A DNA stretch of 64,000 bases. Origin: Argopecten irradians (Eukaryota; Mollusca; Bivalvia; Pectinida; Pectinidae). This document shows, piece by piece, positions 15,672-54,413 of this stretch. The stretch's first letter is position 1, and each line of letters opens with the position of its first letter. Position numbers and translations under genes: made by a program. Below the pieces are notes generated by a model. The model was not told the DNA's origin and did no database searches. It saw nothing but the letters and a program-made list of their open reading frames with translations. Where the stretch lies: assembly GCF_041381155.1 (NCBI RefSeq), contig NC_091137.1, positions 13,821,765 to 13,885,764 on the forward strand. Direction: 5' to 3'.

Positions 15672-16178
15672 ATGACTACTTCTTTACTCCTTACGTTGTT
15701 GTGTGCTGTTTTGCTATTAGTGTTCGTAAATGGCCAGAGACGGGCAAGGTTGACCGGGGTACTAGACAATGACGTACAGTCCATTCTAGACCTTGGCCAG
15801 TTAGTAGGCCTAGGAAGTGCAACTCTGGGAAACGGACTTGGAGGTCTTGGAGGCATTGATGACCTCGGCGGACTAGGTGGTCCAGGAAATGTGTTAGGGC
15901 TTGGAGGTTTCGGAGGAATTGGTGGTATGGGGAGTTTAGGAGGATTTGGCGGTGTTCATATCGGAGGATTAGGAGGCATTGGAGGCCTCAGTGGATTAGG
16001 CGGTCTAGACGGTCTGGGCGGCACAGACATGAGGAGTCTGAGACGCGAGAGGAGGCGCAGGAGGAGGCTGAGGAGAAGGATCTGTCAACAGAATTGTGTG
16101 TTTAGGTACAGAACATGTGTTAGTACCGCGTCATACATGTGTCTGAGAACAGCACGTCAGTGTTTGTTCCTCTGCTAG
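15672..16178 (+). CDS. Secreted Gly/Leu-rich precursor with Arg-rich six-cysteine C-terminal domain (168 aa)
   Basis: Single coding exon. An upstream in-frame ATG at 15651 lies inside the inferred intron, so I chose the ATG at 15672, directly after the acceptor. Residues 1-21 form a signal peptide (hydrophobic core LLLTLLCAVLLLVFVNG). Residues 42-117 are a low-complexity GLGGxGG region. Residues 121-136 are an Arg run with many dibasic, furin-type sites (RRERRRRRR). The last 31 residues hold six Cys at 138, 142, 149, 157, 164 and 168, spaced C-x3-C-x6-C-x7-C-x6-C-x3-C. This mirror-symmetric pattern suggests two helices joined by disulfides. The C-terminal part is strongly basic (16 Arg, 1 Glu from 121 to 168). 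Function unknown. A processed cationic peptide (antimicrobial or signalling) or an extracellular-matrix protein would fit. The gene at 40722 shares the design. No canonical AATAAA is close downstream; ATTAAA occurs at 16689. Confidence 0.82.
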   Translation: MTTSLLLTLLCAVLLLVFVNGQRRARLTGVLDNDVQSILDLGQLVGLGSATLGNGLGGLGGIDDLGGLGGPGNVLGLGGFGGIGGMGSLGGFGGVHIGGLGGIGGLSGLGGLDGLGGTDMRSLRRERRRRRRLRRRICQQNCVFRYRTCVSTASYMCLRTARQCLFLC

Positions 16179-16804
16179 TACAACTATCGTCACACTGATA
16201 GACAGAGCTGTCACCATGAAGACATTTATAATACTTTTATACCATAAATCCAGAATATACACCATAGGGGTGATACCGAATGTTGTGTGCTGTTCGGATG
16301 TTAGAGACATAAAGTGTTTTATAAGCTTTGTTAACATATTACTTTTTGCTGATGTTCTCATTTCAATTGTTACACTGTTTTGTGAAATTTACATGTATTT
16401 TATATAAAATGTGTGAAAAACAAAGTTAATGCGTTATTTCAAACTATTTTAATGATTTCAAAGTCAATACACATGTTACAGGGATATTTAAATATTCACT
16501 ACACGTTACTGTTTGTTATTAGACCTGTGTTAACTAAGCTAAGCCAAGCAATATCATAAGTGCGAATTCATCACTATCAAAGGTGATCAGCAGTCGACAG
16601 GTTCCACCGCTCCGTGACAGCAATGTAATATTTCTACCACTAGGTACTTACTCACTGGTCATCGTGGTCATTCATTCCGACTTATCACATTAAAGATTTA
16701 TGTTCCCTTGGGGGTTGGTGGTCATTATGACGTTATGTGTTGGTGAGCAGGACGTCATAGTTTGCAGAGAAAACGACCTGAGTTTCGTCATAATCAATTC
16801 TGTC

Positions 16805-16974
16805 TTTGCATATTACAGAGTTAGCTCCCTGCGGGTAGGTATCTATTGTTACATCATTATATTGTGAGCGTAATTCACGTCGTTTTCTCCAAAAAGTATG
16901 ACGTTTTGCTCGTAAACACATGACTTCACAATCAATACCTACCCGCAAGGGCAGATAACTCTTTAATATGCAAA
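16805..16974. repeat. Foldback/MITE-like inverted repeat
   Basis: The left arm begins TTTGCATATTACAGAGTTAG and carries GCGGGTAGGTAT. The right arm ends with the complement (ATACCTACCCGC ... AATATGCAAA). Arms of about 45 bp flank a loop of about 85 bp. No coding capacity. Confidence 0.85.
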
Positions 16975-18134
16975 CATAGAATACCTTCTGAAAAGGGCGA
17001 TAATACAGTAATAGTGCAAGTCATATTTATAAATAACCGTTTATATAACAAATAGATATATTATTTTAAACTGCTGACAAGTGTTTTGCTACCAAATCTC
17101 AGTTGATTCTATACAAAGATGTATCCTGTAGACCCCCTGTATTATTATCTGTTTTGTGATACATGACGCCTGGTAACATTTCGGTTGGTTAAGGTTTTAC
17201 GTCTAGAGTCATTCAAGAATGATTTTTCCTGTATGCAATGGGGTACATGTGTAAATATCTGTATGTTTAAGGAGACTGCGGTATATTCGTGTTGTGTCTC
17301 CTTGTAATCAGGAAAATGGAAACGAAAACATTTTAATTTTGTAAAAAATCTCAAAAATACGTTCAACAAACCGAAGTAAGACGACATTCTGATTGACTGT
17401 TTGAATGCATAGGTTCTAATTCGAGTATTCGTATGCTGAAACATAGATTTGGGATGAATAATGGTCATTCGTGCTAGTTATGATTTTAACATTCATCTTT
17501 ACATGGTAATATCCGACAAACAAAAATCTATTTACTTTACCTTTTTAAACAGTTTCAGGTTATTAATTTATCGATTGTCAAATTTTCTTAAGCAATATGC
17601 TATGAGCTACTTTTAACGATAACAGTGATTTTATAGTGAAAATACACCTATTTGATTGCTTTGAAATGATGTTTATGATATGTCATATCTTACAAAATAT
17701 CGAAAGATCAAGTTCTTCGTGAAGCAGTTCGAGTGAAACCATTTGATGAAGTCTATTGGAACATTGTATGATCGTCATATCTGTATGACCGATGCAAAAA
17801 TACTTTGCGATACGCCTGGTTCTATTTCCATAATATTTAGTTTGCACTGACACGAACTCAATAACCATGCTTTCAAGTATAATAATTATCAGTGTATAAT
17901 GCTAGCACAACACGCGCGGTGATTCTATTGTTACGTGAATAGCCGATGGCGTAGCAACGTGAGGTCATGACCCCACTTTTGGCGGGAACATATGAATGAC
18001 TCGATTCTAATCAGCTGTTCAATCGAAGTCGTTGACGATGATGGGAGAGAAAAAATATGTGTATTTAAATAAAAAAAAATACGCAACTGCCGCGGGACAC
18101 AATGGTATTTATTTACTTGAAAAACTGTAAATGT

Positions 18135-18292
18135 AAGGAATATATGTTTATTTTGTTGAGGTTATGAGGGTATAATGATAATGGAGCCCGTGTAAATTTT
18201 ATGTAAGCCGGCTTCGCCAGGGTTACATAATATACACGTGCTCCATTATCATTATACCCTCATAACCTCAACAAAATAAACATCTATTCCTT
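18135..18292. repeat. Near-perfect foldback, ~60-bp arms
   Basis: AAGGAATATATGTTTATTTT and the following GAGGTTATGAGGGTATAATG...GGAGC are matched by the complement on the right (GCTCCATTATCATTATACCC...ATTCCTT). The loop of about 35 bp has a further hairpin, ATGTAA...TTACAT, around CCGGCTTCGCC. The arms are much better conserved than most foldbacks here, suggesting a recent insertion. Confidence 0.9.
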
Positions 18293-20287
18293 AAATACAT
18301 ATACGTTTTAGGGATTTTTCTTAACATCTGTATCTAATACATATATCCTCTCTTTTGCATTAACGATTTTTGAATGAAATATGACCTAGTTACTCTTATT
18401 TTTAAAATTCACCTTGATTACCATAACCTACCACACTTGCTCAAAAGCTGATTTATTAGCAACTCATATCCCAAAACAAAACTTGAACCACTATGGTTAT
18501 TAAGAAACGTATAAATTACGTAGAATTTTTGATGGTAATAATTTGTTCGATTATATCAATAAAAACTGTTAATTTACGTATTTATAAGTGCTGCAACCAT
18601 TTTAAGTTTGAATTAAAATGGTTAACGCCAGCGCGTAAGTGAACATGTTAAAAGGATATTTATTGGTAGGATTAAGGAGGTTCTGAGAAGAGAATAGCTA
18701 TATATTAAAAGAAATAAAAATAAGTATTATAGAAAGGACTATAAAAACATTCTCGGCAACAATCAATGCTTTTATAATTCGAGTCATGTATGGAAAATAT
18801 CTTTTTGTTCATACACTGTAAAACTGAGTTTTCACACTAACTATAACTCTATACCGATTCACTCTATCATATGAGCTTATTTTATGAAGCATTTTTTTAA
18901 AATTAATTTCTGCGGATACATAGAGTTCGTGGCATTTTCCAAAAAACTGTAAAAAAAACCAACAACAACAAAAACAATAGATCACCAATTGATTTTAAGA
19001 AACTAAGATTTGGGTGATTTTTTTTACTATATTTCGCATTTTAATACAAGAATGCAATTGTCTTAACGATCCCACTTTTCAAAAAAAAATCTTTGCCCGT
19101 GAATTTGTATAAGATGCAAAGAGTAACGTAACTTGACCTTTAAAGTAATTATATTTTGAATCGATTAATGTACATTCTTAAATCTGCCCAATTTAGAACG
19201 CAAGCATACCAGTGTCTGGTAACATATTTTCTCATGCGTTTTTAAGTGTTTCAGACGCAAATAGTAAATTGCAACCAGGTTTTAGTACATATCTAAATCT
19301 ATAATCCCTAGGGGATTGTCAAAATGTAGATTTTTAGCTCATTTTCTCACAATCAACCAAAATTCTGCACTTAATCCCAAATGTAACAGAGCCGGATAAC
19401 CTATTTTTTTCTAATGTTTACGATTTTGACTAATGTTGCATAGTGATTATATGAAATGAAGTCAAAAATTGACTTAGAACTCAAAAAAGCAACACCTTTG
19501 TCTCGCCTAAATCGACTAGATCATCGAAGACGTGGTTGATATATTACCTTTAATTCCTTCCAAATAGATTCGACACAGTAATGCATATGCAAAGAAATAC
19601 CACAAGTTTATTTAAGTATACATACAGAAACATTTATATGTTTTTCATAATGAAAATTTACGGATTTTCAAGAGTCATAACTCAATTTTGTTTATGACGT
19701 CACATGTAAATAGATAGCGACAACATTGATACTAATTACTTTGTAAGCATGTGTATGATCTATTTAAACCAACGTTATGCCGACATAAGTAACTGAAATA
19801 AGTGAAAGCAGTTAATCACGATCCATACCCGTAATACACATGCGACATAACTGATAACAAATCCACAGCTATCTGGTTCTTTTTTGACTGGGACCTTTTA
19901 AACTGGAGCCTGCTGTCTGACAATACACTGGTGAATGAGAGTGTTATTATATACGGATAAGAGGCTCTGTATTCGTTTCCTAGTTACAAAATGTATACAA
20001 ATAGCTTTAAAGGCAAACACATAATCTATACCTCATGTAAGTAGATATTGACGTCTTTGAAAAAAACAACACTTTTTAATGATATTTGATTACGTTAAAG
20101 TGTGTTACCATGTGCCATAGTTTGCATCATGTGACCGGAAGTAAACCAAAGTGGTAAGTACCTACCTCAAAGTTTATAACGTGCCAAGGAGCAAGCCGAG
20201 TGAGGGTCAATTTCTGTAACACTACATATCCCTCCGTAGGTCAATATTCAGAACGTTGGAATATTTGTTCTGTTTTGCAGGTACACG

Positions 20288-20352
20288 TATATAAACCTTC
20301 GGAAACCTTCCAAAGTCTCTGTAGTTTAAATCCAGGCCATAACAGCAGACAG
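20288..20352 (+). promoter_or_regulatory. TATA box and inferred 5' UTR exon of the sulfotransferase gene
   Basis: TATATAAA at 20288-20295 is followed about 30 bases later by a short putative exon ending GCAGACAG at 20352 with a strong GTAAGT donor. The likely acceptor is CTGGTTCCAG ending at 21192, 20 bases before the ATG at 21213. The intron would be 840 bp. The layout matches that of the two secreted precursor genes. Inferred, not proven. Confidence 0.55.
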
Positions 20353-21212
20353 GTAAGTTTCAACTTTTATCACATATTGATCGACTACCAAACCACAGCC
20401 TTACGGTAACAATCGGTAACTACAGTGGAATGTGTCGTGATTATTTACTTATTTTTTATACACAAATATTGTCCATGCATGTTGTTTTCTACCTGTGTAA
20501 CCGAAAATGGGTTACAATAAAATATACACGTATCACGTATATCTCGTAAAAGTTCACTGATACAATAGTTCAGTGTAGCATTAATATAATCAAAACTAAG
20601 TATGAATGTTCATGTGATCACATTTCATTGGCGAAATTACGTTGTCAATTTGACCTCAAAACCACATGAAGATGATCTTAAATAAAAAATGATCTTAATA
20701 AGAAGATTATGTTAAATTCAGATACCGAAAATGTAAATCAAGGTCAGGGTTAGGTAAATTATCCCTAGTTTACTTTGTTTGATATTTCTATGGTAAGATT
20801 GTCCTACAATTGATCTGAAATCACATGAAGATATTTTGTCTGTGTAAAATTTTAATGATTTGAGGGATTTCGTTTCAATCTATAGACTTCTAGCTTCACT
20901 TCTAGTTCACTGATTGTGCCACATGGTGTAGTGATACAGTAGTCAACTTCTTCGCGGTAATAAGGTCTACGGCCGGAACTATATGACGACCTGCCTTGCG
21001 TTATAGTAATTGCCACTTATTTTATCTATTCAAAACTGTTCATTAAGTGATAATAAGCTAATAATTTTTGGGATTATATTGTTTTACGGTTTCATTTAAA
21101 ACCTAAAATCCGTTTCGGTAACGGTATGTTTAGATACATATAGAACACAGATCATATCATTAGATGACATTAATCAACGTCTCTGGTTCCAGAACATATT
21201 TAGCACTTGACC

Positions 21213-24200
21213 ATGGAGTTCCGGGAGATCAAGGACAGGGGAGGAGAAATCTTCGCCGTGAAAACTTATGATGGTGTTAATTTCCCCCCAAACGTGCCGG
21301 GAAACGTCAAAGACCATATGGAAGCAGTGAAAAATTTAAAGTACAAGGAAGGCGATATATTTTTTGGTACATATCCAAAATGCGGTATGTGAACTTTTTC
21401 TAATAAGATTTCCCATATAGTGGAGCGGCTAAGGTCGATTTTTCAGCGAAATCGATCAAAGTTTGAAGAAAGCATGAAATTTTGCATATGGCTTCTTTGG
21501 TACATAAGGTTTCAGGAAAAATATGGACCCAACAAAAATCACGGCCCCTGTCGGTCGCCATATTGGTTTTCAAAATGGCTGCCAAAAATCACCTGAAAGA
21601 CCCATAACTCGCGTTCTATACCAGCTAGACCCAAACTTTAAAAGTCTATTTCCAAATTATTGATACCTAGGAAAATTCTGGTAGTGTTAAACTTCACGTA
21701 GAAGGACCACCATTTTGAATTTCAAGATGGCAACAAACTTTGCCAGCTATATACAATGCATCTAATTAGCTAAACTGACTTTAAGCAAATATAGAGAGAG
21801 TACTTATACTTTTGTAGTGTTTGGTACATAAATAATTTGATTCTTAATTTTATTTCAACATGACCGCCATTTTGAAATCCAAGATGGCCATTTAAATTCA
21901 AGTTGTTTTCATATTTTACTCTGTAAGTGATTGAGCAAAAAATCAAGCTAATACTCATAAAGTGTTGATATGATATGCCTTGAATTATATTGGAACAAAT
22001 TCCTGGATTGAAAGTCTACATGCTTCATCTTTCAGGGGATTTTTCGACTCCTCAACTAGAACATTTTCAATGTCGCAAGTCAACAGCGATTGACCAAATT
22101 ACTGCCCATTTGCAGATAACACCGACTCATTCCTTTCAAATCCCTCCTCACAGTGAAACTCCTATGGAAATGGCAAGTCTATAAACACTTCAGAACATCT
22201 AGACGCATTTCATTTTATGGTGTCTGAGAACAAATCCACCTTATGTATGTATGCATTCCTTTTTCAGGTCATACTGACGTCTGTCATTCCAATTTTCTTT
22301 TAACAAAATAGATAAAACTATTTTCTTTTAGTGGCCAGGGCTTTTCCCTCTTTTTTCGAGATGTCTGCAAATTTACTTAACACTTTCTCAGGACAACAGC
22401 TATATGTTTTTAATGAGCTGGGGTAGTGGAACGCACAAGAGTGCCCGGTGGCACAATCAACAGCTTGCACTATCGGTCCCACTTTTTGTCATAGGCAAGG
22501 TTCCGGATGACCAATAACCAATATCTGACTAAGTTACTTTGCTGTCTATATGGACCAAATGTTGTTTATACTATCATCTCCATTGTTTGCACTGAGTTTG
22601 AAGACTTACGGTTCTTCTGTTCTTCTGTTCTCCATCGCTGCAATTTATTTTCGCCTAGTCCTTGGTGCCGTATGCATGGTTTACTGTCGGTGGATATGTG
22701 GTTTAGGTTGATTTATTTTGCATATACTGCACCGCTAACATAGCGCTTTATCTCTGTTCTTTATTCAACACCATCATCTATCTTACCATCGCCATCTTCA
22801 TCTCCTGAGATTGGGAGTTCTACAAAGGTTCAGCTTCATTTTTAAAGCTACGTTATAGAGGAACTTATTACTATCTTCGCAAGGACTGTTTGATAGACGT
22901 ACCACAAGGTTCATGTCAGGCGAGGAAAACTTCCACGCTTTGGCGGCAAAACCTTGCTATGAACTAACTCGAAGTCCTTTCTTATGTGGAGTCTCCTGGA
23001 GTTGTTTGAGTCGTACAGGATTACATCGAACCAATTTCCCAGACATTTTATCTGATTATTGACAATAGAGGGAATATCTTCCCCTGAATCCACATCAAAT
23101 TTCCTGAGATGCGGTTGACGGCCGGGCATGGTTATGCAATATAAGTGCGACATCTCATCCATGAAGCCTCCTTTGGAGGACGAATCCCAAATGATATCCT
23201 TGCATTTAGTACTTCTGTCTGCAGGTAGCCTGATATTAAGAATCTCCATCACACAAAAAGATTCTCTAGGATGACTGCCTAAGTGATTTCGTTTAGATAT
23301 CTTTCTGATAAAATCCTTGCTGTGGTCAGAAAAAAGGTGTGATATCATCCATATACATTAAATAGTTTCAGTCATAATAAACCATTTGAAGCCTTGGATG
23401 CCTTCTTGCTTTAGCGAAAATATATTCGCTAGCCGTCATGAATATTTCCATTCTTTTGGCAAATAATATCTTACACTCCATATCTAAAAGGAGATGATCC
23501 TCAATTGTTTTTTGTTTACAGTTTGTATCTTTGGAAAATGACAGATGACATTAATGAGTCTCTATAGTATTTTTTATAAGGTTTTGGCAAATCTTGCATT
23601 TGTAGACAGTGTAAGTGAATATCTCCTTCAGGAAAGGTTATTTCCAAGGTACATGGTATAGACTATTTCTTTGTTTGTTTGTTTGTTTGTTTAATTAACG
23701 TCCTATTAACAGCTATGGTCATGTAAGGACGGCCTCCCATGTATGCGGTGTTTTGCGTGTATGTTTTGCGAGGTGCGTGTTTTGGGAGGCTGCGGTATAT
23801 TCATGTTGTGTCTTCTTGTATAGTGGAACTGTTGCCATTTTTATAGTGCTATATCACTGAAGCATGCCGCCGAAGACACCAAGCAACACACCCCACCCGG
23901 TCACATTATACTGACAACGGGCGAACCAGTCGTCCCGCTCCCTGTATGCTGAGCGCTAAGCAGGAGCAGAAACTACCACTTTTATAGACTTTGGTGTGTC
24001 TCGGCCAGGGGACAGAACCCAGAGCCTTCCTCACAGGGGCGAACGCTCAACTCAAGGCCAAAAGTGAGGCGGTGCCAAGGGAGGCATTAGGAAAGATTAA
24101 GTCAGTTAGGAAGAAGAGAAAAGATAAGAGCCTAAATTTTTTCGCCTTTTACGATCATGCAATTGGGGCAGCAGGTACAATTCTAACACCCTACCTGCAG

Positions 24201-27200
24201 GGCCGAGACTATTTCACAGAGCAATATGTGATAGTTTTCTAATTAAATATGAACTTACCTTTTGTGTTAAAATGTCTCTGCCAATGCCTCTTTTTAGAGT
24301 TAGAGCATTAACACTGAGTTCTTGTATGAGTGTTCTTTTCAGAATGACCAATATTGCTGTCGTGTAAAATTTGATTCTAGAACTATAGTTATATTTTAGG
24401 CATGAATGAAAAATGGATGTGAAACATGAATGTTTTTTTCAAGCTGCTGAACATTGAAAGAGTTAATAGTCCGATACGTGTCCGAAAGGATGAAATGATT
24501 TAAAGTTTACTCTTAAATAACCGAAGTGAAAGTCAACCACGCTGTGTTTATAAGGACGACGTCGGGGATCATAAACGACCCGCTTTATGGAAATTAACGT
24601 TTGCATTTGATTAATCTATTCAGACTGGTTCAGAGAACAGTGCTAAGTATAATAGTTACAGAGGTTAATACCATTTGAGACTCACGTTTTAAAGTAATGT
24701 TTAAAATTTATCAGCCGTTTCGGTTAGTTTATGTACCTATAATCTAGTACTGCCGGACATCTTGAATTTCAGATTGGCAGCCATTTGACTATTAAATGAA
24801 AATTGAATTATTTTTTATCAAATGCTAAAAAAAAAGAGAAAAAACTCACTTTAATTGCAGGTGTTTTATTTGTTTAAGGATGTACACCTCAAAATTTTCT
24901 TGCATTAAACTTTTTTTCTCATATCGATTTTTGAAAATAGGTGTTCATACCATACAAGAAAATGGAAGAAAAAACATATGTCGGTATGCTTATTTTTGAG
25001 CTATTGTCACTCAAAGATACCAAGTTGATAAAATCCTAGATTTTTTGGGATTTTTGCCGTTTTTACCATATACACAAGAGTTTAAAGCCATAATTTCTTA
25101 ATGAGATGTTTGATATGTATGGAAATTTGAAGAATTTATTTTCCTATAGTCTTCTTTAAAAATATACAAATTATGATTAATAAGACTCATATTTTTTCTC
25201 AGAATTACAACATATGCTACCCCGACCCTTAATTTTGAGCTACAAAATACACAATTTTCAGTCATTTTTGCCAAATTTAACACTTAATAGAAACAGTTGT
25301 GGCATCAAACATTTGGCTCTACTTAAAGAGGAAAAAAACACAATTTCAAAATGGCCGTCAAATGGGCCATTTCTTAAAATCCCTGTATAAAAAAACCTAC
25401 TGAAAATAGTAATGTAATTTTTTGACAAAATTTGCATTTGGCAATTTGCTACAAATATTGATAAAATATATTTGAAAATCTCATAACTTCTTTGATCTTT
25501 GTCGAAACGAGACTTCAACGGGACTGAAACTTCAGAAGAATACATCCTTAAATCAGCTTAGCCAATCATTATATTATTATAATATATATAGATATAGGTA
25601 CTTGAAGTAAATTTGGCGGCCATCTTGAAATGCAAAATGGTGGTCTTTCTACATAAAATTAAACACTACACGAATGATCCTAAGTATCACTAAAAATAAA
25701 TATCAATAATTTGGGTGTAGACGCTTAAGGATGTAGTCTTCATGCTTTCTTCAAACTTTGAACGATTTCATGTTTAGCCGCTCCACTAATTGTAAGATTT
25801 ATCATGTTATAACTTTCTCGACTCAAGTCCGTATTATTCCGTAATTCTTTTGTTTTACATGGATTAGAGATTAACGTCATATTGATAGACGGCCATTTTC
25901 AACGCCCTCCCGTGAATGCGGCATAGTGTGTGAGTGCAAACCTTGGTACGTGCTTTTGGAGACTGCAGCATGTTCATGTTGTGCCTCTTTGCAATATTGA
26001 AACTTTTGCCCTTTTTATTGACGTATGCCGCCAGAGACATAAAAACAAAGCACAGCCTAGTCTGTCACATTATACCGACCACAGGCAACCAAGTCGTCCC
26101 ACTCTCTTTACTCTGAGTTAAAGATTGCGTCTTGACCCCATATCATTATAATTATCATCACTCTATTTTTGTGATTCAGGAACACACTGGGGCTTTGATA
26201 TACTGTACATGTTACAAAACGGAAAAGCAGAATACAACACTGGTAATGTAGCTACTTTAGACTTTGAATCAGTCGACAAAATAGAAGCCATTAAGAGCCC
26301 AAGGATCCTCGTGTCACACTTTTACCCTCAGCATATTCCTCGTGCCATAGTAGATAAGAAATGTAAGATCGTCTACATCTACAGGAATCCCAAAGACACG
26401 GCCGTGTCGATGCATGCATTCTTAAAGCGGCTAAATATGGGCAGCATGAAAATTTACAACGGAACATGGGAACATTTCGTTGAATTATTTATCACACAAG
26501 ACTGTGAGTATATGTAAATGCATTTTCTATTGATATTTAGATCATTTTCGCGTTTTACACGTCGAATTTACATGAAGCCTATGATTGTATTGCCTTTTAG
26601 TGATTGTTTTTACCAACACTAAAGAGTACTATGATAACAAACTATAGCTTTACCGTTACTTTTCACAGGGGTAACAAAGGAATTTTACTAATTTACTCTG
26701 ATTTCTTATATTATCCAAAGGGCGACTGGTTATAGATAGAGTTATTTAGGGACGGTCTCGTCTGTATGGAATGAGCAGAAATTCAATGACGAACATAATA
26801 ACAATCATAGTCTTAAAAATATATGAACAGCGTTTAACCATTGACAATATACGCCGTATAGGAAAGCTTGAACTATTGACCTCGTGAATATTAAACGTCA
26901 TATAGTAACAATTGATATATAGTTTGTAATTGTATCAGAAAAAATGTACAAACAATTCACAATAACTGAATGGATGATAGCGAGAAGTATAGACACTTCT
27001 ACAGGTAGACGTGTATGGGAATTTAGTATTGCAGGAAACCTAATAATGATATTTTTAACTTTTTATTATATAGTGCATTACAATTCCTGGTTCGAGCATG
27101 TGAAGTCATGGGTGGACTTCAAGAAGAAAAACCCGGACGTACCTATTTTGATCTTATCGTTTGAGGATATGAAACTGGTTAGTATTTACATACTCAAATT

Positions 27201-29919
27201 AATATTTAGAAACCATCCGACTAAATGCTTTTCATAGACCACGGTGTTAAAGTTTGTAATGTATTATAAAACAAGTGAATCATCTTTAGTTACAATATTT
27301 TGTTTTATTACTAAAGTCTACGTTCTCATATAACTCTATACATAGCCATTATGAAATAAGGTTATTTTGCACAAAAGTTTAAAGTTGTATGGTCTATCAC
27401 TTTCGCTCTTTTTGTCATAGTTAAAACTGTTTAAGTATTATACACATTTTTCTCCGTTTCTCTGAGTTTTAATCTTTCTAATTTTACCACTTGTTATAAA
27501 GTTGCAGCACTGGAAGTATTTTTAATTATAAAATTGAAAAATCTTTTTAACGTGTACACGTGAAAAATAGGCTCGAAAGAGGCCGAATCATTCCGAACTC
27601 TTCCGAACATCGTCGCGACAATCTTGAAGTAAAACGAGAGTTGTGAAACCAAGAGAAAAGTCAACTATATGTTGTAAACATAAATTGTGGTCGACCTCAG
27701 CAGACTGGATCTACAAAGAAAATAATGCTCGCACATTACAATATTTGATACACTCATTATTGAATTACGGCAATGTGTGAATTAGATGTTTCAAATACTC
27801 GTTCTATGGACATATACCAGCACGATTTGCTCATATTAGCTAGAAGGAAAACGTAAACAAACACATGTGCGCTTACGCTAGTTACCTGGATCACCACGTG
27901 CAGGACGTGTGGACGTCAGTCACGTGATACGATTCGGAATTCCGACAAAACCCGAAGGTACTGAACAACGCGGTGATTGAAGGCGTTTTATTCAAAACCA
28001 CGAATATATGATCCCTAGATTTCGGCTCTCTTGTAGGCTGACATATGGTTTTGGGGAGCTAAATCATCAAGATACATGTCCATGTTCAAATATCAAATGT
28101 TAAAACGACATATCGTTTCAGTGAAAATTACAAGAAATACAACTTTAACAATCGCCTGAAATTACTTTTACTTTTAAAATTCATAATATAACGAACCCGG
28201 GACAAAACTCTATCCGAGGCTCAATCGTCTACGCTAATGTTTTACCGTTATTAATGTGTTGGATTCACAATTGTAGCGTTGCTTCGTGTTTTTCTTTCAA
28301 ATCATAGCTGGACGTCGTAACCTACCATATACTGAAATTGAATCCCAATTGTCCTTTATGAAATAAGGATATAATACTGAAATTCATAATCATTCTTCCT
28401 ACGGCGTTACTTGGTTTTATTGAAGTATTGTGTTATTAACATACTTTAATCACCCCAGTGCGTTTGTTTTTAATATATATATATATATATATGATAAATT
28501 TAAAGAAAAATCCTTACGGACGAAATCTATAAGAAATAAATATATATATATGCGTGTGGTTTCTATGGAAAATGATACGTTTAGTGAAGCCTGCCATTAT
28601 ATATTCGTCATTAAGTAGCATTTGATAATACAGATAATTTCGAATGTGCGTAGTTCAGGTTATTTGGTCATAATCACGTACAGCAATGTTCAGTGTAAAA
28701 CACTTATATATTGGCAATATTGAACGTAATTATGCAACATGGTAAAATTGGCTTTTCAGGACCTCCGAAAAAATGTTCAAAAAATGGCAGAATTTTTGGG
28801 ATCAAAGCAGAATCCAGAGTTCCTTGATGAAGTTGCAAGCAAATGTCAGTTCGGCGCCATGTCTAAAGCCAAAAGTACAAATTCGAAAGAGCTTTCGTTC
28901 AGTAAGGACGGCAGTAATCCTATCTACAGAAAAGGTAAACTTTTCTTCCTGATTTCAAAGTTTGTCCTCGCAAAATAATAATAAAAATCGATTTCACTAT
29001 AAGACTGTTTCATATGTGGATAAGGAGGATAGGAATATACCACTCGAGGGCCACTACATTTAGTAAAATCTGAGGCTTCTCTATCCGTCCTATCCACATA
29101 AGAAAGGTTTTTTTCTCTTGTACCTCAATGTTATCATTACATACATCCAATTATTTAGATTTTCTTCATTGAGTAGCTGTAAAACATACAGCTGCGATTC
29201 TATTTTTAAACCTGTAAATTGCGCGATATCTAAAGGATACCTGGCGTCTGACATTGGCGTTCGATTTTTACTGCGGAAACATACTTCTTGTTGAAGCCGT
29301 GAGGCTGTTTTGCATGCGTAGTAATACTGCCTAAGGTGACATTAATGTATTAAATGAGACGAGAGATCATGGTTTGTGTCTGTTATGATATCTGTCACAG
29401 AACTTTGCTAATAAACGTTTATTTCAATGAAAATGTTTGAATTAGGTCAGTGTATTTTGATGATTTTTCAATTGGTTTTTTTTTTCATTTTTTTTTCTTT
29501 TCTTTTTTTTTGAAAAAGCTACTTGAATGGAAATCTTTGCTATTACCCTTGGTGTAACATTGCTCTGTGTCTGTGTATTTGGCTGCATGCTATAGTGAGT
29601 TAACAGTCTATTATTACAACACGAACATACAACAGTCTCCTAAAATACGTGTGCACTTCACGCAGGCATCACATCGGAAGAGCATCCTTAAATGACATGG
29701 CTGTTAGTAGGATGTTAATATAACAAACGTGATGGTTTCATAAAGAATTAAACATTGTCTGGCATATAAGAATATATCATGGTTTACTTTTATACTTCTG
29801 TTTTAGGTGAGGTGGGAGACTGGAAGAACTGGTTTACTGACGCCCAGAACGAAATGTTTGATAAAATACTGGCGGAAAAGATGGCGGGAATCGACCTGGA
29901 AGTCACATATTCACTGTGA
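21213..29919 (+). CDS. Cytosolic sulfotransferase (SULT family), five coding exons, 295 aa
   Basis: Exons 21213-21384, 26180-26503, 27074-27177, 28760-28934 and 29807-29919 join in frame at GT-AG borders (intron phases 1, 1, 0, 1; total 888 nt including stop). The ATG sits in a good Kozak context (GACCATGG). The family moves sulfate from PAPS to hydroxyl or amine groups of small molecules in the cytosol. Motifs: TYPKCGTHW at residues 53-61 is the 5'-phosphosulfate loop, split by intron 1, with Cys where vertebrate enzymes usually have Ser. The likely catalytic His is 104 in SHF. YIYRNPKDTAVS (R126, S134) binds the 3'-phosphate. RKG at 257-259 followed by GDWKNWFT is the second PAPS motif. Length is normal for the family. 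No clear KTVE-type dimer motif was seen near the C-terminus. No breaks; probably functional. The substrate cannot be predicted. Confidence 0.93.
22911..23460 (-). pseudogene. Degenerate reverse transcriptase fragment
   Basis: On the minus strand a YMDDI motif (about 23341-23355) is preceded by MEIFMTASE and followed, after a frameshift, by SDHSKDFIRKISKR and then GEDIPSIVNNQIKCLGNWFD, a segment I associate with a mollusc retroelement reverse transcriptase. The longest open piece is 145 codons (22911-23348). Fingers, integrase/endonuclease and ends are missing, and the frame is broken at the YMDD box. It lies inside sulfotransferase intron 1 on the opposite strand and is not host coding sequence. 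Confidence 0.6.
23670..24080 (+). repeat. TGTT-headed dispersed repeat (SINE-like), best copy
   Basis: Starts with (TGTT)n at 23671-23693, then TTAATTAACGTCCTATTAAC, AAGGACGGCCTCCCATGTAT, a TTTGGGAGGCTGCGGTATAT segment, TATGCTGAGCGCTAAGCAGG and GGGACAGAACCCAGAGCCTT. Diverged copies occur at 25880-26135, about 30160-30260 and, reversed, 34355-34690. The family appears common in bivalve DNA by my recollection. I did not find pol III boxes, so the SINE label is tentative. Confidence 0.65.
24874..25551 (+). mobile_element. TTAA-flanked MITE, family 1, copy 1 (678 bp)
   Basis: TTAA followed by GGATGTACACCTCAAAATTT at the left and ...TACATCC followed by TTAA at the right. The terminal inverted repeat is short (GGATGTA), and the body is shared with copy 2 at 35193-36201 (for example ACCATATACACAAGAG, TCATATTTTTTCTCAGAAT, GTCGAAACGAGACTTCAACG). 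No transposase. It sits in the right arm of the 21418-25788 element; the left arm at about 21770-21790 keeps the unoccupied site. A TTAA target suggests mobilisation by a piggyBac- or Kolobok-type transposase. Confidence 0.82.
25880..26135 (+). repeat. Diverged copy of the TGTT-headed dispersed repeat
   Basis: GACGGCCATTTTCAACGCCC, TTTTGGAGACTGCAGCATGT, ATGCCGCCAGAGACA, TCACATTATACCGACC and CAAGTCGTCCCACTC align in order with the better copy at 23700-23960. It lacks the TGTT head. It ends about 45 bases before sulfotransferase exon 2. Confidence 0.65.
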
Positions 29920-31178: not shown

Positions 31179-31297
31179 AGAATCACAAACTTATTGTTTA
31201 AAAATTGGTTTACTAACACACAAACATAATTATTGTTCAACTGGATCCAATCGGAATCAATGTTTATACTATATTCAGACACGGTCAAAACAGAGAC

Positions 31298-33765: not shown

Positions 33766-34354
33766 GAATTGTTCATAACATCAATATTGAATCTGAAAAT
33801 ACAAACCACGAATTGTTCAGAAGTTTGACCTGTTCACAAGTGCCAATGTGTGATAGAGAGTGTGACGACTGGTTTGTGAGTTATTAATATACTCTAACTG
33901 GTAGGGTGCATTTGTTCAGTGTCGTCGGTGTCATGCTTCAGTGAGATAGCACTTTATAAATTACAAGAGGTACATCATTAAAAAGGAACACAACACGGAT
34001 ATACTACAATGATAAGTTGGTTCACAATATCCCAACGAACAGTAGCAGTCTCCGTCGTATTTTTCAATATGACCATAACAGTTATATCATTAAACCGATC
34101 CTACAATGCTATTTCAATCGGCTTTGGTTTCTGGTTAGATAAGGCAAAGTGAAACAGGGGACCACTTTGAAACATAACATGCATGATTATCTTACATCCG
34201 ACAACATACGCTCCATACCTACGGAACTGTTCTTGTTGCACCTATTGCATGATGCATGATCGTACAGGGCTACTAAATTGAGGATAATATCTTTTCTCAT
34301 CTTGCTTACTGACCTAATTATTTCTAATGTCATCCTTCACATGTTGAGTTAAGA

Positions 34355-34690
34355 TCTGCCCCTGTAAGGTAAGCTTTGGGTCTTCCCCTGGGCGAGACAC
34401 ACCAAAGTATAAAAGTGGTAATTTCTGCTAAGCGCCCAGCATAAAGGACGTGAGACGAACGTGGGCGTACTTGTTTTGTGTATTCGGCAGTATGTTTTAG
34501 TTTAATAGCACTGAAAAAATGGCAATAATTCCACTATTATAATAGTTCCACTATTACAAGGATACACATACACAACACTAATATATCCACAGCTTCCCAA
34601 AAACATACAAACAGTGATCCATCGCAACATTGAATATAAGGAATGCCATCCGTAAACGACCCTGGCTTTTAATAGGACGTTGAATCTAGA
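34355..34690 (-). repeat. Inverted copy of the TGTT-headed dispersed repeat
   Basis: Read in reverse complement: CGTCCTATTAAAAGCCAGGG, then GGAAGCTGTGGATATATTAG, then CTGGGCGCTTAGCAGAAATT and GTGTGTCTCGCCCAGGGGAA. These match the order of the plus-strand copy at 23700-24010 and lack the TGTT head. Confidence 0.65.
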
Positions 34691-34796
34691 AAACAATTGT
34701 CTCGCTGAGTAGTTCGTTACCTTACCATTATCGGTATGTATATAAAGTTTGTCATCATTATTCTTTACCTTTGCTCTGCGTATTAAGGTCCTGCAG

Positions 34797-34975
34797 CTGG
34801 ACTGAGTTTCACTAAAGGTCGTAAGTCTACACGTAAATGTAAACGTAGACGTAAGTTACGTCTAAAACGTGTTTCACTAAAGGTCGTAACTTTACGTGCA
34901 GCGAAGTTACGATTAATTTTACACGTAAATCTACGTCTACATTGGAGTACACGTAGAATTAAACGTAACCCACTT
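34797..34975. repeat. ACGT-rich repeat segment with internal duplications
   Basis: TTTCACTAAAGGTCGTAA occurs twice (about 34807 and 34872). Between and after them ACGT recurs about a dozen times within ACGTAAA, GACGTAAG and ACGTAGA contexts, many arranged as small inverted repeats. It is probably a fragment of a mobile element end, but no partner terminus was recognised. Confidence 0.55.
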
Positions 34976-35056
34976 CACAACAACATTACGCTAGTTTTCT
35001 GACTGAGAGAACATCGAATACATTTCCGGTTGAGTAGAAATCGATATTTTAGATAC

Positions 35057-37136
35057 TTAAAGCTGACAATGCAAGTTAAAAAGTATACATTTGAGATAAA
35101 AAATTTTTTTTTTTTAAATTCAGTATTTTTTTCAAAATTCGTTTCTGAGACAACCCCTTGCGTTTCTAAGGACGGGCAGTCGCCATTTTGTTTTAAGGTT
35201 GTACACCTCTGAGAAGTCAAAATTTTCTTGTACTAAACTTTTTTCTCATATAGATTTGTGGAAAGAGGAGTTCATACCATGAAAGAAAATGAAAGAAAAA
35301 GATATCTCCGTGTGCTCGTTTTTGAGCTACTGTCACTCAAAGATACCTAGTTGACAAAATATTGGATTTTGTGGGAATTTTGCCGTATTGACCATATACA
35401 CAAGAGATTAAAGCCATAATTTCCTAATGAGGTGTTTGATATGTATTAATGTTTGTAGAAGTTATTTTCCAGTAGTCTTCTTTTAAAATATACCAGTTTT
35501 GATAAATAAGACTAATATTTTTTCTCAGAATAACAATATATGCTACCCCTACCCCTTAATTTTGAGCTACAAAATGCATCATTTTCAGCCATTTTTGCAA
35601 AATTTAACCCTTTATAGAAAAAGTTCTGGTATTAAACTTTTGTTTATATTTTGCATATCAATAGGAAAAGGGTTGTTCTTTCAAAATCAGGCAGAAAAAT
35701 GGGGGGTCCGTGTGCTTACTTTTTTGCCCCACTTGAATATTTGTTATTTTTCAGTATTTTAGAGTAAAAAATAAAAGTGCTCAAATTACCATTAAATGTA
35801 AAAAAAAGTGGAAAAAGTGAATCATTACACACATTAATGTTCAATATTTTAATTACCACGAATCAAGTAAAGATTTACAGCAAAAATTAGCTCGATACAG
35901 CTACAAATGCTGGTGCAGTAATGATTTAAGTAAAAACAATTTCAGTAAAAAATGATAAAACTTTGGCTCTACTCAAAGCGAAAAAAGACACAATTTCAAA
36001 ATGGCCGCCAAATGGGTCATTTCTTAAAATCCCGTTATAAAAAAATCTGCTAAAGTTAGAACTGTAATTTTTTGACAAAATTTGCAACTGACAACTTGCT
36101 ACAGATATTGATAAATTGTATTTGAAAATCTTCTAACTTCTTTGATCTTTGTCGAAACGAGACTTCAACGGGACTGAAACCTCAGAAGAATACATCCTTA
36201 ACTCTGCTTGGATACATCACTGGGTACCGGCCCCTATATAAAGCGCGTGAACCACACACACGTGCGATCAGTCGAACGCTCCCCGTTCAAGGTGTAACAT
36301 ACTGTACTATATATATACCCAATACGTATTTACGTGTAACCTGAGGCCATGCCATAATAATAAAATGGTTAGTACTTTCAAAATATATAGATTTATACAG
36401 TTAAATTAAAAGTAATGAATGAATTCATACCTTCTTTCCACGTGCGAGATCCATTTTGATTATAACGTAAACAAACTCGGAAATTCTAATAGCAGATAAC
36501 ATTTGCAAACTAAAAATAAACACTGCACTCACCTGACAAGTGTTCATTGAAGTAATATTATCTCAACTAGATCCCAAAATATGTCAAAAACGAGCTAATA
36601 AAACACTTCAATATACATTAGATATTACACGCACATGTACAGGTGTGTGCCTTCGGTAGTTTCATATGGAAGCGTCACTTGTTCGGGACAGGTGGTCACG
36701 TGCACGTGGCCAGTCGAGTACATCGGGTACGAAAGTATACGTGGAGATATGTGGACGGATTATTATTAGGATTTCTATTCATTTGTGTGGAAAGTTAAAT
36801 TTGTGAAACATCTAAATGACAGCTTAGAAGAGTTGACGTTTGCTTGCTAAAACAAGCCCTACACATATTTACAGGTAAGGGGTTTTGTTTATGTATTAGT
36901 AGGTGATACACAGTGGACAACTTCTAGGTGTTTATGTACATGACTGAACGCACGTGTGTCGATTCACGCGCTTTATATAGGGGTCGGTAGGCGTCACGTA
37001 TCCAAGCAGAGTTCAAACAAAAATGGCGTCCGTCCGTCCATAGAAACGCAAGAGGCTGTCTCAGAAACAAAATTGGATTTTTTTTTTTTTTTTAAATCTC
37101 AAATGTACATTTTTTAACTTGCATTGTCAGCTTTAA
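35057..37136. mobile_element. TTAA-flanked element with ~210-bp terminal inverted repeats, carrying a nested MITE
   Basis: The left end TTAA + AGCTGACAATGCAAGTTAAA matches the complement ending at 37136 (TTTAACTTGCATTGTCAGCT + TTAA, near-identical). The arms continue through CTTGCGTTTCTA, GCCATTTTGTTT, ACTCTGCTTGGATAC and CCCCTATATAAAGCGCGTGA. The left arm is 35057-35192 plus 36202-36280, because a family 1 MITE interrupts it at 35193-36201. The right arm is 36943-37136 and uninterrupted. The central unique part (36281-36942) has no recognised gene. Each arm carries a TATATAAAG box pointing inward. Confidence 0.85.
35193..36201 (+). mobile_element. TTAA-flanked MITE, family 1, copy 2 (1009 bp)
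   Basis: Starts TTAA + GGTTGTACACCTCTGAGAAG and ends GAAGAATACATCC + TTAA. Aligns along its length with the 678-bp copy at 24874, with about 330 extra bases in the middle (about 35690-35960). No coding capacity. It lies in the left arm of the 35057-37136 element. Confidence 0.85.
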
Positions 37137-37726
37137 GCTGCTCATTTACAACACTGACCATTCAAACGGTCGTTTAATACGGATGCAATCACGTCAAACT
37201 AAAGGAAAAACCAAGTGACGGATCTCTGATCCGGATGCATATTCACCCAACTCTTAGAAAATGCAAAATAAAAAAAAAATAAAAAATATAAAAAATACCA
37301 AGTCCTATGCAGCTGTTATAAATGTTGATTTTTTTTTTCAGAACAATAATATTGTGATGGGACCAAAAATGGTTTAATATAAAACTATTTAGGAACATAT
37401 TCGCCTGTTTTGTATAGTGCATGTGCATATGTACCGTAGATGTATCGTTACTCTACCGAAGAATACATGCGGATGAAAGTTTTAACAAATATAGATTAAT
37501 TTAATAAAGATATAAATAAATCAAACTCTCTTGTTGAATGTTAGCCGGAAATGTGTTATTTATTATTGCATTGCATGATTTGTACATTTTATCATTCTAG
37601 CATTGATAGAAGTTTATATTATAGTAATCTGTCTTAAAATTATAGTTTACATAACATCGGAGACACGCAGCACCTTCCGCGGCTTATAGCCTCATATAGC
37701 CTTATTAATTAAAGCTGGTATATTTT

Positions 37727-37990
37727 TAAAGAAGAATACTGGAAAATGAATTCCACAAACATCCATAATACATATCACACACCTCATTAGGAAATTATGA
37801 CTTTAATCTCTTGTGTATATGGTCAAAACGGCAAAATTCCCATAAAATCCAATATTTTGTCAACTAAGTATCTTTGAGTGACAATAGCTCAAAAACGAGC
37901 ACACGGACATATGTTTTTTTCTTCCATTTTTTTATGGTATGAACTCCTATTTCCAAAAATCTAAATGAGAAAAAAAAAGTTTGATAAAAT
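37727..37990 (-). mobile_element. Partial inverted copy of the family 1 MITE
   Basis: The reverse complement matches the first part of copies 1 and 2: ACTTTTTTTTCTCATTTAG, GAGTTCATACCAT, GAGCTATTGTCACTCAAAGA, TACACAAGAGATTAAAGTCA and CCTAATGAGGTGTGTGATAT. Both TTAA ends are missing, so this is an old fragment. Confidence 0.75.
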
Positions 37991-38011
37991 AAAATTGTGG
38001 AAATAGTGGAA

Positions 38012-38243
38012 TATTCTACGGTGGCTGGGAGCGGACATGAAATAAAAAAAAATTATTGCGTGTGAACGCAATAGTATTGCGTGCGAACGCAAAAGTATTG
38101 CGTGTGAACGCAAAATTATTGCGTTCGCACGCAATAACTATTGCGTTCACACGCAATACTTTTGCGTTCGCACGCAATACTATTGCGTTCGTACGCAATA
38201 ATTTTATTTATTTCATGTCCGCTCCCAGTCACCGTAAAATAGT
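38012..38243. repeat. Large palindrome built from seven ~20-bp hairpin units
   Basis: Outer arms TATTCTACGGTGGCTGGGAG and its near-complement CTCCCAGTCACCGTAAAATA enclose 38055-38199. That core contains seven units of the form ATTGCGT-NNNN-ACGCAAT, each itself a hairpin with 7-bp arms. The 4-base spacers read GTGA, GCGA, GTGA in the first three units and TCGC, TCAC, TCGC, TCGT in the last four. The units therefore reverse direction at the centre of the large palindrome. Open frames crossing this block are artefacts of the repetition. Confidence 0.9.
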
Positions 38244-39485
38244 AGGATATTCCGATAAATCTCTGTCTTGACGGCAATGCGAATAAAGTATACATAATGT
38301 ACATGTAATTTCATAATTGTCCTCTTTTTAATAATAATTAACGATTTTTTAAATACATGTATACATGTAAATTCAGTCCTGCAAAAATAATTTTCAAATT
38401 CGCTCCTGACAATTTGATATAAAGAGAACGCATCGATTTTCATACAAATATTTTTTCATGTCAAATTAATGGCATGTTTTGATTTATACACGATAAACAT
38501 AAGAATATTAATCAAATAGACAATAAGCCGGATATAAAACACCCGCCAAATTAGATCGGGTACCAAGTCGCATCAGCCAATCAGACGCGATGATACAAAT
38601 TGATTTTCAGACGTAAGTTACGCAAAAACTTTAAACTTTTAAACTTTAGAGAAAAGTATATGTAGAAGACTTTATATTCCTCATCTGTGACCAAAAGACA
38701 GCGAGTCATAGACCATGCAACTTTAAAACACATTTCGATTTTCGAAGACCGATCCCTCTCCGGGGTTCGGGGAACTGACCTTTCTTGGAAGCGCCAAGAG
38801 ACCAATATTGAAAAATGTAATTGATTTCGAGATGGGAGCACATGTGGATGTACAGACACGAACTGGAGCTCTATGCAAGTCAGACAAAAGGAACTCCCTA
38901 AAGACAATTGGTACTTTCAGGAGGTCATTCGTCATGCTTTTCACCATACGTGTCCTCCAGTTCATGCAAAAATAACCCTAGACCTCTGACTAATAGAAAT
39001 AAGTGTAACACATGGAATAGAATTATAGTCAATCATTCAAAGGTAAAAAGCCAATTGAACTAAAGGATTATCTAGGGGCAATGCCATTTTGGGTAATACA
39101 TTTGAACACGTGCATAATTTTATAAATAACTCGAAGAAGTAGTCATACTTTCTTGTAATTGTAAAACAATATGAAAATAAGAAAACCAGTGTTCTCTTAA
39201 TACTTTAATGCGGAATCGATTGGGAAATAAACAAAATACATCTATGTAATACTTTTGAGACATATCATTCTCATATCTGATTTGTATTGTGATTGCTGAC
39301 GTTGGGATTTAAGGGAAGACATATATTGTTTGTTTAAATTTGCCTTAAGTGTTGACTACATAATCGATAGATGGCTTTCGGCAATAAGGAAAACCGGGTG
39401 ATTACTGGACTATCAACAGATACGTCTAATTAACGATAGATCATGGACTGTTATTGATTAGGCTCTGATCGAAAACAAAATCTCC

Positions 39486-39546
39486 TATTTAAGCAAATGT
39501 ACCTCGTTTTTGTTCCATAATCTTTTCAGATTTCAACCATAAGAAG
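39486..39546 (+). promoter_or_regulatory. TATA-like box and inferred 5' UTR exon of the secreted precursor gene at 40722
   Basis: TATTTAAG at 39486-39493 lies about 30 bases upstream of a short putative exon (about 39516-39546) that ends AGAAG before a strong GTAAGT donor. The acceptor is TTTTCCTACATACAG ending at 40714, seven bases before the ATG. Intron 39547-40714, 1168 bp. Inferred from spacing and splice signals only. Confidence 0.6.
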
Positions 39547-40721
39547 GTAAGTTTTCATTGTCTACTTTCAACTTGACTTATTGTCATTATTTTCAGTAGA
39601 TTTATAGATATTTGAAATTAACATTTGGTTACTTTTTCAGTGAGTTATGCTTATGCTTTATTTATTCTATCGGTTTAAATTGGTGATAAAATTAAACAGA
39701 AATGTAAACGAATATCGTCTTTTTAGGTCTAGTAGATATTTCTATATTAATGTACGATAAAAATGTTGTTTTTGCACACATATTTTCGCGTTCTTTACAG
39801 TCTTAAAAATTGAGGACAGACGCTCGATCTTACTAAAGAGAAAGTATACATTACGTGGAATGTGTTAGACTTTATGATGAAATATGTTAACAACATATTG
39901 TGACATACAAGGATATAATTGTTTCTGTAATATATATGTTTACCAGGATAATTCATCTGGGGAAGAAGATAGAATTGAAATCAAGCTACAATCATTAATG
40001 TCTATTATGCTAAATCAAACGTTACTATATTATATACAAAAATCACATTGTCTCTTTAAGTTACAATATTTTTTTAAAAGAAATCATACTTTTATCAAAA
40101 TTAATAGTTCTTGTTGTGTTTAATACATTCATACGTATGTTTAAAACGTTTTTTTTTACTTGCCTTTGTTATGAAATTCGAAGATATACCCAATCTTATT
40201 ACACATTCTAATTTAGACGCAATGTAATTAGATAAATATAGATATAATTTCTCAATGATTTTAGAATATTTGCCCTGCCAAAACACTTTTCTTGGAATGG
40301 TATGGCGAGCCCATATCGTATCAACTCAAAATAATAAAAATAAGAAATATTGAATAATTATGGAGAGAATGAAACAACATTCTTATCATGATGATAAATG
40401 CACATAATGCATTTTTATCATAAAGTTAAACGTACATTTTATTTTGGGTCACCGAAAAAAACACGACAGTAGTGATGTGATAAGCAATCCAAATGTTTCC
40501 CTGCGTTTTGAAGACATTTTCAGAATTTTCGCAAATAGTTTAACCACCTGATTTTATCAAATAAGGAAATTATCAACAAATTACCGCTATTCTATATCAA
40601 ACAGTATGTTTGACACCACAACCATAATTTAATGTATCTTTATCTTGATTAGATACTCATGATCATTTTCACTGATTTGCCGTATTAAATAAGACTTTGT
40701 TTTCCTACATACAGAGCTAAA

Positions 40722-41102
40722 ATGAAGGCCACTGTGTGCCTTCTGGTCGCCTTGGTTTGCTGTGTCACTTTTACGACAAAGACATATGGGGTATTACTTG
40801 ACAACCATGTCTTAGGAAGACCCATACATGGTGGACTTACACATGGATTTAGTGGACATGGAATTGTTGGACATGGGCTTGGTCTTGGACATGGTGGCCT
40901 TAGTGAATTTGACCTTTTTGACCCGGATCTGGATAACGGGATTTTCACAGATCTTGGAGGTTTAGGATGGGAAGTAAGAAGATGTCGCAGAACATGTTTA
41001 GTGACCAGACAGTATTGCTTACGCCGAGCTTTGTATGGCCGCGGGAGATGTAGACGCCAAGCCAGACGATGCATGAGGAGGTGCCGACGGAGATATCTAT
41101 AG
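40722..41102 (+). CDS. Secreted His/Gly-rich precursor with Arg-rich six-cysteine C-terminal domain (126 aa)
   Basis: Single coding exon right after a splice acceptor; start in AAAATGAAGG context. Residues 1-23 form a signal peptide (core VCLLVALVCCVTF). Residues 29-59 are rich in His and Gly (HGGLTHGFSGHGIVGHG). Residues 61-77 are acidic (SEFDLFDPDLDNG). The C-terminal 41 residues contain 18 Arg and no Asp or Glu. Its six Cys at 88, 92, 99, 110, 117 and 121 are spaced C-x3-C-x6-C-x10-C-x6-C-x3-C. The outer spacings equal those of the precursor at 15672; only the central gap differs (10 instead of 7). An acidic pro-region followed by a cationic disulfide-rich peptide is the usual design of an antimicrobial peptide precursor, but this is inference. 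The His-rich segment could bind metals. A poly(A) signal AATAAA lies at 41166. I do not recognise the family. Confidence 0.85.
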   Translation: MKATVCLLVALVCCVTFTTKTYGVLLDNHVLGRPIHGGLTHGFSGHGIVGHGLGLGHGGLSEFDLFDPDLDNGIFTDLGGLGWEVRRCRRTCLVTRQYCLRRALYGRGRCRRQARRCMRRCRRRYL

Positions 41103-45980: not shown

Positions 45981-46028
45981 TCTATAATATTGATCGCGCC
46001 GCCTTCTTGCAGACAACAAATTGTAAAC

Positions 46029-54365: not shown

Positions 54366-54413
54366 TCTATAATATTGATCGCGCCGCCTTCTTGCAGACA
54401 ACAAATTGTAAAC

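Follow-up and report, generated by a model that had tools for sequence, protein, structure and literature searches.

A 64,000-nucleotide stretch of the genome of the bivalve Argopecten irradians (NCBI RefSeq assembly GCF_041381155.1, contig NC_091137.1, here C4, positions 13821765-13885764; hereafter the window) contains two genes, P1 and P2, that encode secreted precursors with a basic domain of six cysteines. Both open reading frames (ORFs) had been singled out in an initial annotation made from the sequence, and both are present on the plus strand where that annotation placed them, with the signal peptide, Gly-rich middle, and basic C-terminal domain ascribed to each. The P1 coding sequence (15672..16178, 168 amino acids) begins with a signal peptide of residues 1 to 21 that ends in FVNG (15672..15734), followed by a Gly/Leu-rich middle with GLGG and GFGG repeats (15798..16025). 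A polybasic run, RRERRRRRRLRRR (16041..16079), lies directly before the six-Cys domain and is a possible furin-type release site; the domain itself, C-x3-C-x6-C-x7-C-x6-C-x3-C, runs to the stop codon (16083..16175). The P2 coding sequence (40722..41102, 126 amino acids) consists of a signal peptide of residues 1 to 23 (40722..40790), a His/Gly-rich middle with an acidic patch and a net negative charge (40803..40973), a six-Cys domain of the form C-x3-C-x6-C-x10-C-x6-C-x3-C (40983..41084), and a basic C-terminal tail, RRRYL (41085..41099), with a candidate poly-A signal, AATAAA, downstream (41166..41171). Signal peptides were delimited by eye from the translations and domains by a pattern scan, which reproduced the previously noted Cys spacings of 3,6,7,6,3 and 3,6,10,6,3 exactly. 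Each precursor has six cysteines outside the signal peptide; the signal peptides hold one more in P1 and three in P2.

Both start codons are preceded by an acceptor-like 3' splice site that had been overlooked, a pyrimidine-rich tract followed by CAG, 2 nucleotides (nt) 5' of the P1 ATG (15656..15669) and 7 nt 5' of the P2 ATG (40701..40714). By a scoring scheme of our own, devised after the sites were seen, the P1 site scores 11 and the P2 site 10, values matched by 2.1% and 5.2%, respectively, of the 13820 ATGs in the region. Because both ATGs directly follow such sites, P1 and P2 are each probably a single coding exon behind an intron in the 5' untranslated region (UTR).

We scanned 314 kb of DNA for the framework, made up of the window, 100 kb on each side, and 50 kb extra downstream. 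Within the window, a six-frame scan allowing a center of 4 to 14 residues matched P1 and P2 solely. Across the 314 kb, the six-frame scan recovered nine distinct ORFs with both exact arms, all within C4:13.837-13.938 Mb. Eight intact genes of the form C-x3-C-x6-C ... C-x6-C-x3-C lie in about 100 kb, two in the window and six, missed by the initial annotation, just beyond it. The arms are identical in all eight; the center, or turn, alone differs in length, spanning 2 to 10 residues, which upholds the earlier view that the scaffold is conserved more than the sequence. With turns of 7 (P1) and 10 (P2) in the window, the downstream genes are P9 (turn of 2; L014:7076-7285), P3 (turn of 5; L015:3141-3377), and P4 (turn of 5; L016:1015-1248) on the minus strand and P5 (turn of 8; L017:521-754), P6 (turn of 9; L017:8767-9027), and P8 (turn of 8; L019:1730-1939) on the plus strand. 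P7 (L018, about 7053-7313) is decayed, as its framework is kept and its signal-like part lies in a different frame, and a further degraded copy lies at about 5920-6160 of L019 (~13.942 Mb on C4).

The pattern scan found no framework ORFs in the 100 kb upstream of the window, and in the last 90 kb of the scanned region a minisatellite artifact alone matches. None of 60 sequences simulated from the window with an order-3 Markov model (center of 4 to 14) contained the framework, and neither did 30 Mb simulated from the 314-kb region (center of 2 to 12). We consider it very probable that these genes form a clustered family built on one six-Cys scaffold. Among the 28 matches to a wider pattern in the 314 kb, 19 were dropped, as they belong to three ORFs in a single minisatellite with CPCVCYVGII units (L025, C4:13998331-13999664, minus strand); such repeats mimic Cys frameworks and call for caution in pattern scans.

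Searches of the 846-Mb assembly (1508 contigs) with P1, P2, P3, P5, and P6 returned no credible relative beyond the cluster except a decayed copy with an internal stop 7.6 Mb distant (C4:6192155, 6.19 Mb); members elsewhere could have escaped these five queries. A match to P1 on C3 (E value of 2.1e-5) was not counted, as it has 28% identity over a Gly-rich stretch (residues 51-151) with four internal stops, nor was a match on C16 (E value of 2.1) that also contains a stop. The genome searches with P1 and P2 recovered no other family member, which illustrates that scanning a chromosomal neighborhood for Cys spacing can find relatives missed by a single-protein homology search. The decayed copies are consistent with the gene turnover described for mussel defense peptides (PMC10138031).

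All eight intact genes encode a signal peptide and a basic six-Cys domain, as read from their sequences. An acceptor-like site lies 2 to 19 nt 5' of the ATG in every case (AAG in P6; CAG or TAG in the rest), scoring at least 8 in 8/8 genes, compared with 20% of the region's ATGs, and at least 10 in six, compared with 5.2%. The net charge from residue 25 onward is +7 to +14. The domains, of 26 to 34 residues, contain 4 to 13 Arg (fewest in P1) and at most one acidic residue, and Lys is absent from seven of the eight. The six downstream precursors are short (69 to 86 amino acids); any Gly-rich patches in them are small, the clearest being that of P5. A C-terminal Gly, a possible amidation signal, ends five of the eight precursors, the exceptions being P1, P2, and P5.

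Conservation is higher in the signal region than in the mature part. Among five aligned short members, pairs share 10 to 17 identities in the first 27 residues and 5 to 13 identities per 33 to 45 positions of the mature part outside the cysteines; the proportion of nonsynonymous differences (pN) over the 10 pairs is 0.18 to 0.42 in the signal region versus 0.41 to 0.59 in the mature part. A hydrophobic stripe accompanies the cysteines: across nine domains, including the decayed P7, 24 of the 27 residues at position 8 of the first arm and positions 4 and 8 of the second are hydrophobic, with P1 contributing 3/3 and P2 2/3. This count exceeds the best three-column count in all 5000 shuffles, the maximum of which was 22.

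The proposal that the domain forms two helices pinned by three disulfides gained support from structure prediction. AlphaFold2 (AF2), given each domain as a single sequence, predicted a helix-turn-helix for both P1 (helices at 2-23 and 26-38; mean predicted local distance difference test score [pLDDT], 89.3; predicted template modeling score [pTM], 0.57) and P2 (helices at 2-18 and 23-41; mean pLDDT, 86.3; pTM, 0.56). In a geometric model of two ideal antiparallel helices with cysteines at 0, 4, 11 and 0, 7, 11, the nested pairing C1-C6/C2-C5/C3-C4 is compatible with the fold, giving Cβ-Cβ distances of 4.0, 4.0, and 3.5 Å and a misfit of 0.23. The five other interhelix pairings have misfits of at least 16.8, the next best being 1-5, 2-6, 3-4 (6.4, 6.5, and 2.1 Å). 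The 3-6 spacing ranks second, tied with two others, among 80 mirror spacings with a median misfit of 26. A ladder of nested disulfides linking antiparallel helices would call for just the mirror symmetry that the initial annotation noted in the framework.

Database searches yielded no homologue. Among 5.8 billion proteins, P2 gave no relatives in 76 candidates, the P1 domain found itself alone in 21, and a six-member alignment (A3) gave none in 1420; this silence is weak evidence because P2 itself was not returned, so that the genes of this genome are incompletely covered. Pfam has no match to P1, and the best E values for P2 (0.074) and for a short member (0.028) are unconvincing. Three sequence searches of the PDB produced best E values of 0.57, 1.4, and 0.59, none credible, and Foldseek against the PDB gave no matches for the P2 model and 49 for the P1 model at E values of 3.9 to 9.5, none meaningful. 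The search for homologues suggested in the initial annotation thus turned up paralogues with the same spacing in the same genome and, in the databases searched, no orthologue in another species. The framework is not named for any mollusc in the literature titles and abstract openings surveyed. Its description as undescribed does not hold for the arms: when the spacing was queried in the literature in four written forms, the arms matched those of the aphid peptide BCR3, already in print as CX3CX6CX21-25CX6CX3C (PMC9604261).

BCR3 is described there as a secreted, bacteriocyte-specific cysteine-rich peptide with a signal peptide and a short mature part, belonging to a family presented as restricted to aphids; Table 3 of that paper lists its disulfide pattern as unknown, and the text names it among the BCRs that are antimicrobial or permeabilize Escherichia coli (PMC9604261). 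The same two arms occur in 8/8 intact genes here, but the BCR3 center of 21 to 25 residues contrasts with 2 to 10 in all eight, and BCR3 comes from an insect. Because the center is far longer and the comparison is by consensus rather than by sequence, BCR3 is treated by analogy, as a parallel and not a relative. Its combination of the same arms with reported antimicrobial or membrane-permeabilizing activity slightly raises the case for a defense function.

By known fold, the closest peptides are the turgencins and the alpha-hairpinins, and the family belongs to neither. Turgencins A and B, antimicrobial peptides of the ascidian Synoicum turgens, are reported on the basis of nuclear magnetic resonance to have nested C1-C6/C2-C5/C3-C4 disulfides and a helix-loop-helix and to be cationic and C-terminally amidated (PMC7024374). 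They likewise have six cysteines, none adjacent, with an outer C-x3-C on both sides, but their spacings are 3,4,8,2,3 and 3,4,7,2,3 rather than 3,6,n,6,3, their basic residue is Lys rather than Arg, and they come from another phylum. They show no similarity to the family profile, which 58% and 78% of shuffles with fixed cysteines match equally well. The alpha-hairpinins, described as plant defense peptides rich in Lys and Arg with the motif C1XXXC2-(X)n-C3XXXC4, two disulfides, and an antiparallel helix-loop-helix (PMC4695807), share the outer C-x3-C pairs and the basic composition, and a helix-turn-helix is predicted for P1 and P2, but all eight domains here have two further cysteines. No hairpinin family in Pfam matches up to an E value of 10, and in the solved-structure search vicilin hairpinins appear at E values of 8.1 to 10, behind an unrelated receptor at 0.59. 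The suggested kinship with alpha-hairpinins survives as a likeness of plan rather than of demonstrated descent; the number of cysteines and the missing sequence match place the family outside the group. The amphioxus peptide mBjAMP1 has reportedly been called alpha-hairpinin-like in the title of a paper.

Among bivalve peptides, the mussel CRP-I family is described as a secreted, cationic, six-Cys multigene family with a conserved signal peptide, a hypervariable mature part, and pseudogenes (PMC10138031). A first exon confined to the 5' UTR is reported for CRP-I and may also occur in the genes here, but CRP-I has the pattern C(X3-6)C(X1-7)CC(X3-4)C(X3-5)C, a knottin-like character, and an ORF spread over three exons (PMC10138031). 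Its adjacent Cys3 and Cys4 have no counterpart in the eight genes, where 2 to 10 residues separate them. Mytilins are likewise cationic Cys-rich defense peptides of bivalves, given as having eight cysteines in the array C-X3-C-X3-C-X4-C-X11-C-X-C-X-C-X2-C and a CS-alpha-beta fold (PMC7168163), whereas 8/8 genes here have six outside the signal peptide. Taken together, the family appears to consist of three-rung helical-hairpin peptides resembling defense peptides, apparently new and lineage-restricted, the arms themselves having been described already in BCR3.

The best explanation, which we regard as probable, is that the genes constitute a lineage-restricted family of secreted cationic host defense peptides. 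Each would be expressed from a noncoding upstream exon and one coding exon, and the signal peptide suggests that the product is secreted. The C-terminal domain is predicted to form two antiparallel helices, which three nested disulfides (C1-C6, C2-C5, and C3-C4) would join while leaving the turn free to change. Short members comprise little beyond the cationic domain, and the five with a terminal Gly could be C-terminally amidated. In P1 and P2, a Gly-rich, slightly acidic proregion might shield the positive charge up to the release of the domain, for P1 possibly near the polybasic run. Charge, hydrophobic stripe, divergence, clustering, and likeness to known antimicrobial hairpins are the grounds for proposing that the stapled cationic hairpin would bind anionic microbial surfaces and disrupt them. 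Its role could be innate defense or symbiont control, with everything but the scaffold diversifying along with the microbes.

Several observations weigh against this explanation. It draws on genes, sequence features, and predicted helices, and AF2 was applied to two short sequences, each on its own and with no scrambled control; for the two domains, the worst of five models averaged pLDDT values of 60 and 65. There is no sign of positive selection, as pN is below pS, the corresponding synonymous proportion, in 10/10 mature pairs; for 7 of these no dS could be computed. Shell matrix, too, typically contains secreted proteins that are Gly-rich and have basic regions. Finally, neither P1 (P = 0.25) nor P2 (P = 0.12) is significantly similar in Cys-fixed shuffles to a profile of the downstream domains (P3 to P6, P8, and the decayed P7).

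This last result concerns whether the two window genes belong with their short neighbors. Aligned with each other, the P1 and P2 domains score better than chance (P = 0.0013 when every residue is shuffled; 0.029 when cysteines stay fixed), and the first 60 amino acids are weakly similar (P = 0.024). An ungapped test of the residues between cysteines (P = 0.18) and a comparison of the 40 residues after the signal peptide (P = 0.51) do not rise above shuffles, and blastn of one 4.5-kb locus against the other detects nothing above noise. The initial annotation, which called the two very different outside Cys and Arg, overlooks this weak similarity, seen in some of the tests. As their residues do not significantly resemble those of the downstream members, P1 and P2, the most divergent of all, are assigned to the family by their framework, location, and gene organization, together with the hydrophobic stripe, and common ancestry with the short genes is not claimed from sequence. 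If the framework had instead arisen twice in neighboring genes, the dissimilar residues and different signal peptides would be explained, and the occurrence of the same arms in aphid BCR3, in another phylum, suggests that this spacing may have several origins. We nevertheless judge such convergence quite improbable: the arms, the 100-kb neighborhood, and the acceptor-before-ATG layout are all shared, the stripe is common to P1, P2, and the rest, and the framework never appeared in the 30 Mb of simulated sequence.

For function, the main rival to host defense is a part in the matrix of shell, periostracum, or byssus, played chiefly by P1 and P2 and perhaps not by the short members; a Gly-rich framework would carry a six-Cys domain with affinity for acidic glycoproteins or mineral, along the lines suggested for KRMP and shematrin proteins. 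This is the main rival because KRMPs also pair a basic six-Cys region with a Gly-rich one: they are described as having a signal peptide, six conserved cysteines within a basic region, and a Gly/Tyr-rich region (PMC3191542), and the shematrins as Gly-rich shell proteins (PMC4498902). The P1 middle is rich in Gly/Leu repeats and P2 ends in RRRYL. Shematrins have basic-Tyr ends, of which the P2 tail is reminiscent; P1 lacks such an end, and P2 also has the six-Cys domain. KRMPs differ in being Lys-rich with a C-terminal Gly/Tyr part (PMC4498902), whereas here Lys is missing from all domains but one and the Gly-rich part comes first in P1 and P2, and the six neighbors are short, with little Gly-rich sequence. 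We consider a matrix role unlikely, though less so than convergence.

Two further functions are far less probable. Attractin, a pheromone of Aplysia, has nested disulfide pairing and a two-helix fold and is not known to be Arg-rich. It is described as a secreted molluscan peptide of 58 residues with three intrachain disulfides (PMC3484142), and the peptides here could be water-borne or paracrine signals of similar build; abundant Arg and mature parts that differ strongly within one genome suit defense better than a receptor ligand, and we give this very little weight. We see just as slim a chance that they are protease inhibitors with an exposed Arg as bait. The alpha-hairpinins VhT1 and BWI-2c are reported to be trypsin inhibitors (PMC4695807), and an Arg stands directly before Cys2 in all six short intact members. 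This Arg is absent from P1 and P2, no Arg position recurs throughout the nine domains (the best occurs in six of nine), and a turn varying from 2 to 10 residues also speaks against inhibition.

Returning to host defense, a broader interpretation can be offered, at slightly less than even odds. What this lineage-restricted animal family chiefly conserves may be a three-rung disulfide ladder between two helices, in which both arms stay at 12 residues while the turn ranges freely from 2 to 10. The BCR3 arms are perhaps convergent, in which case the stapled hairpin would be a recurrent, as yet unnamed solution. One cluster would then give rise both to nearly naked cationic effectors and to long Gly-rich precursors (P1 and P2) that could join a structural part, embedded in mucus or shell, to a releasable defense domain. 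A recurrent stapled hairpin predicts nested disulfides for BCR3 as well, a single prediction of C1-C6/C2-C5/C3-C4 bonds spanning two phyla. If real, the family would represent a new defense peptide scaffold in animals that filter microbe-rich water, and it would provide a natural series of eight forms of the stapled hairpin, with the ladder fixed and the turn length varying, that are easily synthesized and compared.

Other elements were recorded in the window. Between P1 and P2 lie two sulfotransferase ORFs (PF00685; the second slightly below the cutoff), probably exons of one gene (26209-27237, plus strand), and a short tandem array of nearly palindromic ~21-bp units (TATTGCGTGCGAACGCAATAC; 38049-38201). 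A satellite at 293-5721 is built of ~145-bp units, with a period of 436 bp also found, and contains GACCTTGACCTTCATTCAAGGTCAC. The sole Rfam match above threshold in the window is a tRNA gene (49734-49806, plus strand). Two copies are present of an element that combines a QRICH1-domain (PF25561) ORF with tandem repeats of 50 bp; their two parts are 91% alike (44203-46620 versus 52496-55007) and 98.8% alike (46754-49267 versus 61499-64000). A Gypsy-type long terminal repeat (LTR) retroelement (55843-60719, plus strand) sits inside the second copy, which suggests that it inserted after that copy had formed. Its integrase (PF17921, PF00665) precedes the reverse transcriptase and RNase H (PF00078, PF17917), the order known from Gmr1-like elements. 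The genome as a whole has at least 150 C1q-domain matches (150/150 scored, from 241 candidates); C1q expansion is known in bivalves, and this count fits it.

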